DNA from: an uncultured Campylobacterales bacterium
GTDB lineage: Bacteria > Campylobacterota > Campylobacteria > Campylobacterales > Arcobacteraceae
NCBI GenBank assembly: GCA_947503785.1
Contig: CANNFB010000020.1
Span: 1-36,451 of the forward strand
Length of the DNA: 36,451 bases
Direction: 5' to 3'
Shown here: one piece after another, positions 12,742 to 18,506 of the stretch
How positions within the stretch are numbered: the first letter of the stretch is position 1
How the letters are laid out: each line of letters starts with the position of its first letter
The notes under the pieces: model-generated
Databases searched by the model: none
Told to the model about the DNA's origin: nothing
Seen by the model: the letters and a program-made list of their open reading frames with translations, nothing else
Translations under genes and position numbers: made by a program

Positions 12742-13032
12742 TTATAAAAGCATCATTACATCACTTACAATGCACTTTCCACCATATTTTTTTATAAAGC
12801 TTCGAATATCCTCTTGCATACATAGGTATTTCTCTTCTTCACAAACTGTAAATATATAGTTATTACTAAAAACATCAGTTATGTCATCTGCTGTTTTAAG
12901 ACCATGGCTACCATTTCCTGCTATATCTTTGATAAGCGTATATCCTGTTATCTCATATTTTGTTAAAAGTTTCAAAAATCTATTTATATAAATAGATTCA
13001 ATAATTACTTCAACTTTCTTCATATTAATCAT
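12742..13032 (-). CDS. PII-like protein, SbtB type
   Basis: The protein has 96 residues and a ferredoxin-like PII fold is suggested. An opening strand (KKVEVIIESIYINRFLKLL) is followed by YTLIKDIAGNGSHG at the place of the PII nucleotide-binding B-loop. The T-loop region is short and the last strand is CIVSDVMML. It lacks the uridylylated Tyr context of GlnB. Position, 3 bp downstream of sbtA, is that of SbtB, the adenine-nucleotide-sensing PII-like protein that binds and gates SbtA. GGGGG stands just before the ATG. A second in-frame ATG three codons on is an alternative start. Confidence 0.75.
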   Translation of the reverse strand: MINMKKVEVIIESIYINRFLKLLTKYEITGYTLIKDIAGNGSHGLKTADDITDVFSNNYIFTVCEEEKYLCMQEDIRSFIKKYGGKCIVSDVMMLL

Positions 13033-13035
13033 CTT

Positions 13036-14016
13036 CTACCCCCACAATGTATTTATAAAAAAGTAATATAATGGAATTCCCAATGAAATATTAAAAGGGA
13101 AAGTAATAGCTAAACTTAAAGGTAAGTATATTCCAGGATTCGCTTGAGGAACAGAAAGTCGCATAGCTGCTGGAACTGCTATATAAGATGCACTACCACT
13201 TAAAAGTGCTAAAAGGAACGCATCTCCTTTTGAAAGTTCAAAGAAATATGCTAAGGCTACTGCAACTGATGCATTTATTATAGGCATTACTAAAGCAAAT
13301 ACTATTAAGAAGTATCCAACTTTTCTAAGCTCATAAATTTTTCTTGCAGCTACTAATCCCATATCTAAAAGGAAGAAAGCTAGGAAACCTTTAAACAAAG
13401 TTCCAAAAAGTGGCTCCATTGAGTTCCAACCTTTTTCACCTGTTAAAATACCAATAATCAAAGCTCCTACTAATAAATAAACTGAAGGATTTAAAAAGGC
13501 TTCTCTTAGAATCTCTTTCCAATCTGTTTTTTCTGCTTTTTCTCCATTTTTATCTTTTGCAAATAGTGCTGCAAAAACTAATCCAATTACAATAGCAGGA
13601 GATTCCATTAGCGTCATAGCTGCTACCATATAACCACCATACTCTACACCCATTGTTTGTAAATATGTAATTCCGGTAATAAAAGTAACAGCACTTATTG
13701 AACCATATGTTGCTGCAACTGCTATGGCATTGTAAGTATCAAGTTTTCGTTTTAATATAAAATAACTGTAAATGGGTACAAGAGTTGCCATAAATATAGC
13801 TAAGAGTAGAGCCTTTAGAACATTAAGATCTAATCCACTTTTTGAGAGTTCATATCCACCATGCAAACCTATTGCTATTAATAAATATAAAGAAAATAGT
13901 TTTGGTAAAGGTTGGGGTATAGATAAATCAGATTTTAGAAAGACCGCAAGCATTCCTAAAAAAAAGAATAGAATGGGGGGATTTAAAATATTTTGCAATA
14001 TTATATCAATATTCAT
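13036..14016 (-). CDS. sbtA: Sodium-dependent bicarbonate transporter SbtA
   Basis: The 326-residue membrane protein has about ten helices in two inverted halves. The N-terminal ILNPPILFFFLGMLAVFLKSD, the IAIGLHGGYEL segment and the late SGSASYIAVPAAMRLSVPQA segment are characteristic of the SbtA (DUF897) family. The hydrophilic loop between the halves is near residues 150-165 (AKDKNGEKAEKTDWKE). SbtA imports bicarbonate with sodium. It is followed by the PII-like gene and by purK-purE in close order. A perfect 24-bp palindrome lies 46 bp upstream of the start. Confidence 0.9.
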   Translation of the reverse strand: MNIDIILQNILNPPILFFFLGMLAVFLKSDLSIPQPLPKLFSLYLLIAIGLHGGYELSKSGLDLNVLKALLLAIFMATLVPIYSYFILKRKLDTYNAIAVAATYGSISAVTFITGITYLQTMGVEYGGYMVAAMTLMESPAIVIGLVFAALFAKDKNGEKAEKTDWKEILREAFLNPSVYLLVGALIIGILTGEKGWNSMEPLFGTLFKGFLAFFLLDMGLVAARKIYELRKVGYFLIVFALVMPIINASVAVALAYFFELSKGDAFLLALLSGSASYIAVPAAMRLSVPQANPGIYLPLSLAITFPFNISLGIPLYYFFINTLWG

Positions 14017-14106: not shown

Positions 14107-14355
14107 CTAATTACCTTGCATATATAAATAAACAGATAAGAGTAAAAAAAATCCTGCATAAAGGTAAAGATTCTTTTGTTTTTCTTTTCTTAAGATATTT
14201 TCATCAACTTCAAAAACTGCAATTGACTTTAATCTTCCATTATCAAAATATTCTAAGAATTTATATCCTTTTATAGAATATTTTTCTTTTATTTTTTCTA
14301 AATTTTTTTCTCTCTGGTCTTTGCTGAAACCACCAACTATTATATTTTTCTTCAT
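14107..14355 (-). CDS. Small tail-anchored membrane protein, unknown function
   Basis: The 82-residue protein is not one I recognise. The N-terminal part is soluble and charged, with KKNIIVGGFSKDQREKNLEKI followed by a segment with KFLEYFDNGRLKSIAVFEVDE. A single C-terminal transmembrane helix (about 64-79, rich in Leu, Tyr and Phe) ends the chain. AAAGG precedes the ATG at normal spacing, so it is likely translated. It stands alone, downstream of no gene on its strand, with an AT-rich region above it shared with the divergent small-peptide gene. No function can be inferred. Confidence 0.6.
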   Translation of the reverse strand: MKKNIIVGGFSKDQREKNLEKIKEKYSIKGYKFLEYFDNGRLKSIAVFEVDENILRKEKQKNLYLYAGFFLLLSVYLYMQGN

Positions 14356-14459
14356 TATAACCTTTCATGTAATATATAATATTAGTTAATTAAAACGTGA
14401 AGTATATCTAAAGAATCTTTTAATTTATCCCTTCTTATTCAAGTGAAATTTGTAAAGAT

Positions 14460-14507
14460 AATGTCAAGAACTATATCCTTTTTATCTTTACAAAAAAACA
14501 CTAAAAT
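14460..14507 (+). promoter_or_regulatory. Promoter of the 27-residue peptide gene, matching the nhaA promoter
   Basis: AATGTCAAG, nine bases, CTTTTTATCTTTACAAA, seven bases and TAAAAT (14502-14507) follow in order. The nhaA promoter has the same blocks with the same spacings (36 of 48 positions identical by my count). A TTGTAAA copy 11 bp above TGTCAA extends the tandem repeat. TTTGTAAAGATAA (14449-14461) and its reverse complement (14482-14494) also form a 13-bp inverted repeat here. The -10 places the start about 27 nt above the ATG. Confidence 0.6.
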
Positions 14508-14540: not shown

Positions 14541-14624
14541 ATGGATATAGTAAAAAACTTAATAATGGTAAATATTGCGTTATTTGTAGGTTTAGGTGTT
14601 CTATCAAGTAGCATATCTGGCTAG
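14541..14624 (+). CDS. 27-residue hydrophobic membrane peptide
   Basis: ATG begins a 27-codon frame (MDIVKNLIMVNIALFVGLG, then a short Ser-rich tail), stopped by TAG at 14622. A well-placed AAGGAA lies 6-9 nt upstream. Residues 7-22 form one likely transmembrane helix after a short charged N-terminus. The gene fills part of an otherwise empty 304-bp interval and converges on the kinase gene of the nhaA operon. Its promoter region matches that of nhaA over 48 bp, strong support that it is real and co-regulated. Small peptides of this type often modulate a membrane transporter or sensor kinase. Which partner this one has is not visible. Confidence 0.6.
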   Translation: MDIVKNLIMVNIALFVGLGVLSSSISG

Positions 14625-14659: not shown

Positions 14660-16036
14660 TTATTTAAATAATATATAAAATATATTATATGGACTATTGT
14701 ATTTATAATTTAGTTCAAAGACATGGCGGCTTAAAATTTTATCAACAATATTCAAGCCTAAGCCATGACCTTGTTGTTGATTTGGTTCTCTTGTAAATGG
14801 TTGTATATAATATATCAAATTATTTGAAAGTTTTCTAGCACTATTTTTTACATATATTGTATTATCTTTACTTTCAACAATTATAGGAAAATCTTCAGCA
14901 TATTTTATTGCATTATCAATTAAGTTTTTAAGTGCAATAGTTAAATAATAAAAATCTGCTTCAATATCAAAGTCATTTTGAATTTTTACAATTACTTTAG
15001 ATTCATCTTCAATAAATAATTTTGATAAAGACTCCAAAATTAAACTACTAGATTTAAACTTACTAGTTTTTAAAATAGCAAAGTTTAACTTTTCTCTTTC
15101 AAGAAGTTTACTAGTAAGCATTTCAATATCATAAAAAATTGTATTTATATCTTTTATTGTTTTATTATCATTTTTTTGAATTTTTTCAATTAAAAATTTG
15201 CCTTTAGCAATAGGAGTCTTTAATTCATGACTTATATTTCTAAGTAACTCTTCTCTTGAATCTATAATATCAGATTGTTTTTCTAAATAAGAGTTTAGAT
15301 TGTTTGTTATTTCACTTAATTCGTTATTCTCTCCGATATCTATTTTTATAGTTTTTTCACCATTTTTAAATAATTGTAAAACACCTTTATTAAGTCTATA
15401 AAGCTTTTGTTTTATTTCATATATAATTTTTGAGGAAATTATAAAACTAAGAAGAAGCAATAGTACAAATAAAATAAATAGTTCTAGTTTAATCGTACTT
15501 AAAAATTCATTTCTCTTATCTTGTGCTTGCTTTAATTTATCTTGTAAATATTTTGTCTCTAAAGTAAGTAATTTTTCTGTATCAATATTTATTTGTTCAA
15601 AATTTATATTAAAAGTTTTAAAATCACTATTTTGTTTAAGTACTAAATTATATAAGTCTTTTTTTATAAGTTTTTGCATAATGTCAAAATATTCAAAAAT
15701 TAAAATCAAATTATTTTCTTCTTCTTTTGATTCAGAATTATTTATGATTATAGATTTTTGAGTATTTAGATTTTCAAAGAACTTATTTGCTTTGTTTATT
15801 CTTTCATTTACAATATCAATTTTTTCAAAATCTGTAATAATATCAAGAACTATCCAAGAATATGAGTTATTAAACTCTTTTAATTTTTCTACTCTTATTA
15901 ATTGATCATACCTATGATTTTGTTGATAGTTAATACTATTAAGATTATAAATTGTATAGAAAAAAACTCCAAGGATAAATGTAACTATTAATATAATTAA
16001 AGAGAATGCTATAAAAAGTCGTTTTCTAATTGTCAT
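14660..16036 (-). CDS. Sensor histidine kinase, ArsS-like, of the nhaA operon
   Basis: With the ATG at 16036 (MTIRKRLF) the kinase has 458 residues and overlaps the regulator gene by 11 bp. The longer frame from 16102 would add 22 residues lying deep in the regulator gene and is less likely. Two transmembrane helices (about 8-29 and 183-203) enclose a helical periplasmic domain. A HAMP-like linker and RNISHELKTPIAKG with phospho-acceptor His270 follow. The ATPase domain has NLIDNAIKYA and GHGLGLNIV. The HELKTPIAKG form resembles the ArsS family, the acid-responsive kinase of Helicobacter and relatives. Linkage to nhaA fits sensing of pH or sodium, but the signal is inferred. Confidence 0.87.
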   Translation of the reverse strand: MTIRKRLFIAFSLIILIVTFILGVFFYTIYNLNSINYQQNHRYDQLIRVEKLKEFNNSYSWIVLDIITDFEKIDIVNERINKANKFFENLNTQKSIIINNSESKEEENNLILIFEYFDIMQKLIKKDLYNLVLKQNSDFKTFNINFEQINIDTEKLLTLETKYLQDKLKQAQDKRNEFLSTIKLELFILFVLLLLLSFIISSKIIYEIKQKLYRLNKGVLQLFKNGEKTIKIDIGENNELSEITNNLNSYLEKQSDIIDSREELLRNISHELKTPIAKGKFLIEKIQKNDNKTIKDINTIFYDIEMLTSKLLEREKLNFAILKTSKFKSSSLILESLSKLFIEDESKVIVKIQNDFDIEADFYYLTIALKNLIDNAIKYAEDFPIIVESKDNTIYVKNSARKLSNNLIYYIQPFTREPNQQQGHGLGLNIVDKILSRHVFELNYKYNSPYNIFYILFK

Positions 16037-16715: not shown

Positions 16716-18050
16716 TTATGCTGCTTTTTTTGCAATGTATTTTAACCAAAAAAAGCCAAATAATCCAGCAAATAAAGAAGCACAAAGTATTCCAACTTTT
16801 GCTTGTAAAATAAGTTCAGGTGATCCTACAAAAGCTAAGTCAGCAACAAAAATTGACATTGTAAAGCCAATACCACCTAAAAAGGATACACCAAAAATCT
16901 GACTCATAGTACTTCCTTTTGGCAATTGTGCTATTTTAAACTTAATTGCAAGCCATGATAAGCCAAATATTCCTATAACCTTACCAAAAATAAGTCCAGA
17001 AATAATACCTAAAGATATAGGTTCTAAAATAATACTTTCAATAGAACTAAAATCAATTGCAATTCCAGCATTTGCTAAAGCAAAAAGAGGAATAATAATA
17101 AGTGCAACAGGAAGATGTAAACTATGCTCAAGTCTAGCAGCAGGTGTTTCTACTGCATTAATCTTATCTTTTATATTTATTAATAATGCCTTTTGGTTTT
17201 CATGCATCATATAATTATCTTGAATAGGATATTTTTCATACTCTTTTACTAAGTTTATAGTATCTTCTGAAAAAGAGTCTGGCGTTTTTTTAGGTTTTGA
17301 AGGAATTGTAAGTGCAGCGATAACTCCCGCAATAGTTGCATGAACTCCAGATTCAAGCATAAAAAACCACATAAATAAACCAACAATAAAATAAGGTAAA
17401 ATAGCATGAATTCCAAATCTATTTAATGATATCATAACAAAAAACATAGCTCCTGCTAAAGCAAGTGGTAAAATATTTATTGTTTCTGTATAAAAAAGAG
17501 CAATTACTAAAACAGCTCCTAAATCATCAACAATTGCAAGTGCAACTAAAAATGTAACTAGAGTAGTGGGAACTCTTTTTCCTAATAAAACAAGAGCTGT
17601 AATTGCAAAAGCAATATCTGTTGCCATTGGGATTCCCCAACCATTTGCTCCAACGTCATTAGCATTGAAATATAAATAAATTAATGCTGGGAATACCATT
17701 CCTCCAATTGCAGCTATTATTGGTAACATAGCTACTTTTAAATTTGATAACTCACCTGCTGTTATCTCTCTTTTTATTTCAAGTCCGATAATAAAGAAAA
17801 AAACTGCCATAAGACCATCATTAATCCAATGATGTAAAGAATGTGATAATGCCCATGATCCAACGTTAAAATCAATATTGACATGAAAAAAATGTAAATA
17901 ACTTTCAGCAAAAGGTGAATTAGCTAAAGTAAGGGCTAAAAGTGTCATAAAAACAAGCATAAGGCCTGTCGTAGTTTGTGCATGTATAAAGTGTTCAAAG
18001 GGTGTAGCAATTCTTCGAAATGCTTTTTCCCATGGTGAATATATTTTCAT
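16716..18050 (-). CDS. nhaA: Na+/H+ antiporter NhaA
   Basis: The 444-residue protein has about twelve membrane helices. It contains GLEIKREI (89-96), MATDIAFA with Asp145, and ALAIVDDLGAV with the ion-binding pair Asp175-Asp176. These correspond to Asp133, Asp163 and Asp164 of E. coli NhaA. It exchanges external protons for internal sodium in alkaline or salty conditions. A hydrophilic insert of about 50 residues (about 255-310, with KPKKTPDSFSED) between helices makes it longer than E. coli NhaA (388). AGGAGG precedes the ATG closely. It is the first gene of an operon with a response regulator and kinase, an uncommon pairing. Confidence 0.96.
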   Translation of the reverse strand: MKIYSPWEKAFRRIATPFEHFIHAQTTTGLMLVFMTLLALTLANSPFAESYLHFFHVNIDFNVGSWALSHSLHHWINDGLMAVFFFIIGLEIKREITAGELSNLKVAMLPIIAAIGGMVFPALIYLYFNANDVGANGWGIPMATDIAFAITALVLLGKRVPTTLVTFLVALAIVDDLGAVLVIALFYTETINILPLALAGAMFFVMISLNRFGIHAILPYFIVGLFMWFFMLESGVHATIAGVIAALTIPSKPKKTPDSFSEDTINLVKEYEKYPIQDNYMMHENQKALLINIKDKINAVETPAARLEHSLHLPVALIIIPLFALANAGIAIDFSSIESIILEPISLGIISGLIFGKVIGIFGLSWLAIKFKIAQLPKGSTMSQIFGVSFLGGIGFTMSIFVADLAFVGSPELILQAKVGILCASLFAGLFGFFWLKYIAKKAA

Positions 18051-18228: not shown

Positions 18229-18303
<75 letters not shown>

Positions 18304-18323
18304 ATGTGTGTTAAATTTAAAAG

Positions 18324-18398
18324 TGGCTCCGGCACCTGGATTCGAACCAGGGACCAAATGATTAACAGTCATCTACTCTACCACTGAGCTATGCCGGA
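18324..18398 (-). tRNA. tRNA-Asn(GTT), middle variant copy
   Basis: This 75-nt gene has encoded CCA and the same anticodon loop (CTGTTAA, GTT). It differs from its two neighbours only in stem pairs, all compensated: acceptor TCCGGCA/TGCCGGA, one anticodon-stem pair (G-C to A-T) and the first T-stem pair (G-C to C-G). Loops, D-arm and discriminator are the same, so it should be charged as Asn. Confidence 0.97.
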
Positions 18399-18431
18399 AT
18401 CTAATAAATTTATAAATCATTAAAAAGGTAA

Positions 18432-18506
<75 letters not shown>

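Follow-up and report, generated by a model that had tools for sequence, protein, structure and literature searches.

An uncultured Campylobacterales bacterium of the family Arcobacteraceae carries a reading frame for a 27-residue transmembrane peptide beside a sensor kinase gene, and this locus raises the question of whether the frame is a gene and, if so, on what its product acts. The window analyzed here is a stretch of 36,451 nucleotides from that organism. A first-pass annotation, made from the letters of the window, had proposed a regulatory or accessory role for the peptide and had named NhaA or the kinase as natural partners. Comparative evidence confirms that positions 14541-14624 hold a genuine, conserved gene. 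We tentatively propose, on a nearly even balance of probability, that its product is a dedicated feedback modulator, most likely a negative one, of the kinase in the NhaA-linked two-component system. The features involved are collected in Table 1.

Table 1. Features of the peptide locus and the neighboring nhaA-regulator-kinase genes (window positions).
Feature	Positions	Strand	Evidence or remark
Promoter and candidate regulator box of the peptide gene	14451..14507	+	0 mismatches to pattern
Shine-Dalgarno AAGGAA	14530..14535	+	5 nt spacing to peptide ATG; relatives have similar sites
27-residue single-TM peptide gene	14541..14624	+	ORF calls, homologues, purifying selection, hydropathy
Sensor histidine kinase, 458 aa from MTIRKRL	14660..16036	-	Two TM helices, kinase core
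OmpR/PhoB-type response regulator, 15 bp after nhaA	16026..16700	-	Response_reg, Trans_reg_C
nhaA, Na+/H+ antiporter, first operon gene	16716..18050	-	PF06965, E 5e-148
Same promoter architecture upstream of nhaA	18088..18144	-	0 mismatches to pattern

The peptide frame runs from an ATG at 14541 to a TAG stop codon at 14622-14624 and encodes MDIVKNLIMVNIALFVGLGVLSSSISG, in which K5 and N6 lie at the N-terminal edge, a hydrophobic helix spans about residues 7-25, and the C-terminus reads SSSISG. It sits in a 304-bp gap between an 82-residue ORF (start 14355) and the stop of the kinase gene (14660), and the stop codons of the two convergent genes are 35 bp apart. Thus, the start codon, the well-spaced AAGGAA, the single hydrophobic helix, and the stop that were read in the first pass are all borne out by ORF coordinates and hydropathy, and the convergence with the kinase end in an otherwise empty gap is likewise correct. 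Within the 36-kb window, the peptide is the sole ATG-initiated ORF of 20-35 codons with both a Shine-Dalgarno-like site and a hydropathy (19-residue mean) of at least 2.1, and mononucleotide shuffles yield 0.17 such ORFs; on its own this is weak support because the threshold was set post hoc, with the peptide's value of 2.16 already known and after a first cut of 2.2 had excluded the peptide.

We accept the frame as real because it is conserved, with homologues in 24 genomes, and is under purifying selection. The homologues, found by tblastn and with a peptide profile (E<1e-8), are single-helix peptides of 24-27 residues in 24 of 104 Arcobacteraceae genomes. Those recovered by tblastn among the 104 share 46-89% identity, and every one of them converges with the same kinase gene. 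Reading the DNA behind every kinase orthologue (29 genomes, >50% identity) revealed a second arrangement, in which the peptide gene of 13 genomes is co-directional with the kinase gene and directly downstream of it (at 1.1 kb in one case), as exemplified by MSFLRNLIVLIAVSFTAIGFISASF. A profile of 21 sequences has a consensus of roughly M-x-F-V/L-R-N-L-I-I-...-I/L-G-x-I/L-S-x-S, with M1 and G19 invariant. All 24 genomes that it matches at E<1e-8 possess the kinase, and its search of the 75 kinase-less genomes gave nothing comparable to those matches. Among named organisms, the closest relatives that carry the locus are Poseidonibacter lekithochrous A1R12 and P. ostreae SJOD-M-5. Outside the family, 399 genomes of the order held one clear case, a Sulfurospirillum MAG (UBA2217; L155 and L120) with a kinase of 73% identity, the upstream box described below, and a divergent peptide in the convergent arrangement (MEFLRNLILLDVVIFGGLALLLNLFQN), which suggests either transfer or mis-binning.

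Selection on the peptide is evident from the substitutions themselves. Summed pN is 0.083 versus a pS of 0.322. In eight disjoint pairs, 120 substitutions are distributed 30/17/73 over the three codon positions and cause 43 amino-acid changes versus 73.6 expected, the lowest of 5000 simulations being 59. The proposed check for synonymous-substitution bias therefore returns clear purifying selection, and the loss or frameshifting of the frame in relatives, which had been offered as grounds for refutation, is not what is found. Alternative reading frames across the same bases contain stops or drift. Stops occur in the peptide frame of one genome (G098), from which the upstream box is also gone, and one of three peptide copies in another (G059) runs out of frame from its ATG at a T homopolymer, a shift that a sequencing error might explain.

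A blastn self-match between the DNA upstream of the peptide gene and that upstream of nhaA led to a direct repeat, TGTCAAG-N4-TGTCAAG. Its period of 11 bp is that of an OmpR/PhoB-type target, and the window's response regulator is presumed to bind it. The peptide promoter consists of TGTAAAG-N4-TGTCAAG (14451-14468), N18, TTTACA (14487-14492), N9, and TAAAAT (14502-14507), and the nhaA promoter reads TGTCAATAAAATGTCAAG-N18-TTTACA-N9-TATAAT. The direct-repeat box lies upstream of all 27 of the 27 peptide copies, 79-102 bp from the ATG and with 11-14 of 14 positions matched. The full pattern, TGTMAAK-N4-TGTMAAK-N18-TTKRCA-N9-TAWAAT, has two perfect matches in the window's 2.76-Mb genome (peptide and nhaA) and another with 3 mismatches. 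At ≤2 mismatches, it occurs in 29 of the 104 genomes, exactly the 29 with the kinase, and in 0 of the 75 others; a reversed-pattern control gave one match in total across the 104. Because the pattern was derived from these same loci, in genomes that share descent, its presence at many kinase loci is expected, and what is informative is that the 75 others, which mostly bear NhaA, lack it.

If TAWAAT is taken as the -10 element, the box spans about -63 to -46, a usual position for an OmpR/PhoB-type activator; activation is the presumed mode of control. TTKRCA itself looks like a half-site in inverted orientation, TTGACA being the complement of TGTCAA. The earlier suggestion of a plausible promoter stands in the form of this highly specific promoter, which emerges by comparison; a generic sigma-70 scan sees none there and was uninformative (3 matches versus 4.3 in shuffles). 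Rfam searches at the peptide and nhaA for an RNA element, including a Na+/Li+ riboswitch, returned only tRNAs above the gathering score.

The three genes that face the peptide gene appear close enough to form one operon, and the MTIRKRL start of the kinase overlaps the end of the regulator gene. Both the receiver and the Trans_reg_C domain of an OmpR/PhoB-type protein are present in the regulator. The predicted structure of the kinase (mean pLDDT 77) has two transmembrane helices and a long four-helix-bundle sensor. In a PDB fold search, the kinase core resembled HprS, YycG, and CpxA, and the sensor was not recognized. The kinase is only ArsS-related: the ArsS model NF038389 is its nearest NCBIfam model, and the score of 183 bits falls below the cut-off of 250.

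Which of the two proposed partners the peptide follows can be judged from their distribution. The peptide occurs in 24 of the 29 kinase-bearing genomes and in 0 of the 75 others (Fisher 5e-19, which is descriptive only because the genomes are related). It always adjoins the kinase gene except in G067 and for one extra copy in G059, and because it is found beside that gene in two orientations, it is the peptide rather than the DNA arrangement that is kept. The kinase tree unites the co-directional group in a single clade and requires two changes for the convergent copies; the genomes G092, G035, G067, G072, and G073, which have no adjacent peptide, form one side branch. The kinase can work without the peptide, since six kinase-bearing genomes have no adjacent intact copy (although G067 carries one elsewhere). 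NhaA, in contrast, is present in 84 of the 104 genomes, and some 60 NhaA-bearing genomes that lack the kinase also lack the peptide. Even the operonic NhaA subtype (~450 aa, as judged by ORF length) occurs with neither kinase nor peptide in G037, G038, G040, G051, and G052. Conversely, peptide and kinase coexist with no linked nhaA in G033, G095, and G099, and G059 has only a 60-codon nhaA remnant. The peptide thus tracks the two-component system and not NhaA, and the obligate linkage to a transporter gene that would mark an accessory subunit is broken in those four genomes and, in the converse sense, in the five with NhaA of the operonic subtype. A regulatory or accessory role tied to the kinase thus has good support from linkage, co-occurrence, and the shared promoter, whereas NhaA as partner is disfavored by co-occurrence.

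The genes preceded by the promoter also characterize the system. It stands at the head of the nhaA-regulator-kinase operon in many species and, in G033, of just the regulator-kinase pair. In G092 and G035, it also lies behind the kinase gene, ahead of an nhaA gene of a second type, after which comes a CPA2 exchanger gene; G067 probably shares this arrangement. In G067, a peptide copy behind the box is directly followed by an Mrp antiporter operon, and in G059 a boxed copy lies about 160 bp before such an operon. The peptide is the only gene that bears the full promoter in G095 and G099. Because the promoter, or at nhaD its half-site repeat, precedes nhaA (with CPA2 after the second type), Mrp, and nhaD genes, the two-component system appears to govern monovalent cation/proton antiporters. 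At the nhaD loci, TGTAAA/TGTCAAG half-site repeats that lack the full architecture lie in reverse orientation upstream of the NhaD-type antiporter gene in five genomes, including that of the window (L132 1691-1720; L127, L130, L131, and L134).

Other elements lie behind the same promoter. Unrelated short transmembrane peptides include MPIVDLVLFGFIGVVLIVSLVGFFIYNSK (G068, with close copies in G069 and G067), MILFRILIPIIVIFFITLGTLAFA (G067), and MENIGLIVFLGIVIVAVVLGFIALAKKR (G073), located on L247 and L248 (- strand), L249 (both strands), and L125. In five genomes, the promoter is followed by a likely small RNA or leader, which comprises TCTTAATAAAGTG and after it a long hairpin, CTAAGTACAAAA..TTTTGTACTTAG (L245 +380, L246 -1186, L247 -255, L248 -377, and L250 +275). 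Three of these hairpins were folded (z -2.7 to -4.7), and an Rfam search with the RNA gave no match. In P. ostreae (L133 776-1993), what by eye is an IS30-like transposase gene separates nhaA from the regulator box, so that the nhaA promoter looks disrupted and that of the peptide intact.

Our proposal is that the kinase phosphorylates the regulator, which would then bind the TGTCAAG repeat, some 46-63 bp ahead of the start of transcription, and activate two transcripts: nhaA-regulator-kinase, as output and autoregulation, and that of the peptide gene, which converges on it. The peptide would enter the inner membrane, its basic N-terminus remaining on the inside, perhaps pack through the conserved small residues G19 and S22 on the four-helix bundle that the kinase dimer forms in the membrane, and thereby alter kinase activity, most likely damping it, by analogy with MgrB on PhoQ. 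The membrane is the expected site of action because the peptide has a short basic N-terminus, one helix, and almost no periplasmic part. Feedback on the kinase is favored because regulator-controlled expression beside the kinase would be the MgrB circuit. That the regulator binds the box and activates instead of repressing, that the peptide is translated, how it lies in the membrane, that it contacts the kinase, and which sign the feedback has are all inferred. The joint loss of frame and box in G098 counts for feedback. Counting against it are the boxed peptide copies at Mrp operons (G067 and G059), which fit an antiporter-related role too, and the promoter borne by the peptide alone in G095 and G099, as if the peptide were an output.

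These last observations support the main alternative, which we consider possible though rather unlikely: the peptide would be a small effector of the regulon that adjusts Na+/H+ antiport or the ion permeability of the membrane (acting on NhaA, Mrp, NhaD, or the bilayer), with KdpF, CydX, and AcrZ as comparable accessory peptides. The regulon does consist of antiporters (nhaA, Mrp right after a peptide copy, and the second nhaA with CPA2 in G092, G035, and G067), and unrelated transmembrane peptides share the promoter in G067, G068, G069, and G073. However, NhaA and Mrp are unrelated proteins that one peptide is unlikely to serve, NhaA-bearing genomes without the kinase have no peptide, and the peptide remains next to the kinase gene after nhaA is lost. 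A broader and still less likely reading is that the system works largely through transmembrane micro-peptides (this one and the unrelated ones of 24-29 residues, together with the hairpin RNA) for monovalent-cation/proton homeostasis; in some species, such as G095 and G099, the peptide would then be the main or sole direct output and act on antiporters or the membrane, not only on the kinase.

Little weight falls on explanations that dispense with a regulatory peptide. The size and hydrophobicity of the product are compatible with a membrane-damaging type I toxin or stress-induced growth inhibitor, but no antitoxin RNA was identified, and a regulator box with fixed linkage to one kinase would be atypical, which makes this improbable. 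We give marginally less credence to regulator-driven antisense RNA or transcriptional interference that lowers kinase mRNA, in which the convergent transcript rather than the peptide would matter. Convergent ends do lie 5-96 bp apart or overlap, and a terminator scan between them, itself uninformative, found none. Yet 13 genomes have the co-directional order, the G067 copy is detached, and the amino-acid sequence is conserved throughout; because of the co-directional clade we reject an antisense-only role. Least credible of all is a chance ORF or decayed gene remnant. Its very short length and the absence of a family match would suit this idea, but the homologues in 24 genomes, the freedom from stops, the purifying selection, and the retained promoter and Shine-Dalgarno site speak against it.

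The proposed feedback modulator falls in none of the known families, although its action would be of a known kind, that of small membrane regulators of kinases. The peptide matched nothing in Pfam, NCBIfam, or the PDB, and in open-licence papers we found no description of it or of Arcobacter nhaA or two-component systems. MgrB expression depends on PhoP/PhoQ, and the protein inhibits PhoQ through its transmembrane region, with N-terminal lysines being important (PMC8404706, PMC10576120). Like MgrB, the peptide is a very short, presumably bitopic inner-membrane protein with a basic N-terminus, and, judged from sequence, would be expressed outside the kinase operon transcript, under a promoter that belongs to the very two-component system that supplies its proposed target, the kinase. 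It differs in having 27 rather than 47 residues, in the absence of the periplasmic domain that MgrB needs, and in facing an ArsS-related kinase with a predicted four-helix-bundle sensor instead of PhoQ. MgrB also has two conserved periplasmic cysteines, C28 and C39 (PMC8404706), and no cysteine occurs in any member of the peptide family. None of the 21 members matched the MgrB profile of Pfam/NCBIfam at E up to 10, and the KdpF profile showed no similarity to the peptide. The comparison with MgrB, SafA, and KdpF that had been drawn for this frame is therefore functional at most.

The connectors MzrA and SafA are likewise small membrane proteins that act on a sensor kinase (PMC2727453, PMC8404706), but they join one system to the kinase of another, whereas here the promoter is the neighboring system's own. 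KdpF, CydX, and CioY are also single-helix peptides, about 25-40 residues long and conserved in synteny (for CioY, PMC11955535); these follow their complex, whereas the window peptide follows the kinase even where no antiporter gene is linked. From the ArsRS/ArsS kinases of Campylobacterota, to which the nearest NCBIfam model belongs, the present system differs in its Na+/H+ antiporter regulon and in the kinase's score below the model's cut-off. If our proposal is correct, MgrB-type control of kinases by tiny membrane proteins would extend beyond enterobacteria by way of an unrelated peptide, and about 25 residues with no periplasmic domain would be near the smallest unit able to control a kinase. 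It would also put a name to a Na+/H+-antiporter two-component regulon in Arcobacteraceae that is marked by a precise promoter signature and includes NhaA, Mrp, and probably further members.

Several further observations concern the surroundings of these genes. A related two-component system, encoded as cytochrome c genes, regulator, and kinase, has a TGTCAAG box much like that of the peptide ahead of its cytochrome operon (L128 1097-5462; L055, L058, L060, L062, L063, and L072), and in G086 it includes a small exported protein that is CpxP/Spy-like by eye. Because this related regulator uses such a similar box, either regulator may be the protein that binds at the peptide and nhaA genes, and cross-regulation between the cytochrome-linked and nhaA-linked systems is possible. 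Across the gap, the window encodes an SbtA-type Na+-dependent bicarbonate transporter and a PII-like (SbtB-like) protein (12742-14016), and this transporter is another sodium-linked function near the peptide. The 82-residue ORF adjoining the peptide gene (14107-14355; MKKNIIVGGFSKDQREKNL..) had no match in Pfam or NCBIfam and is kept in relatives (L006 and L014). Before nhaA, three closely similar tandem tRNA genes lie on the minus strand (18232-18506).
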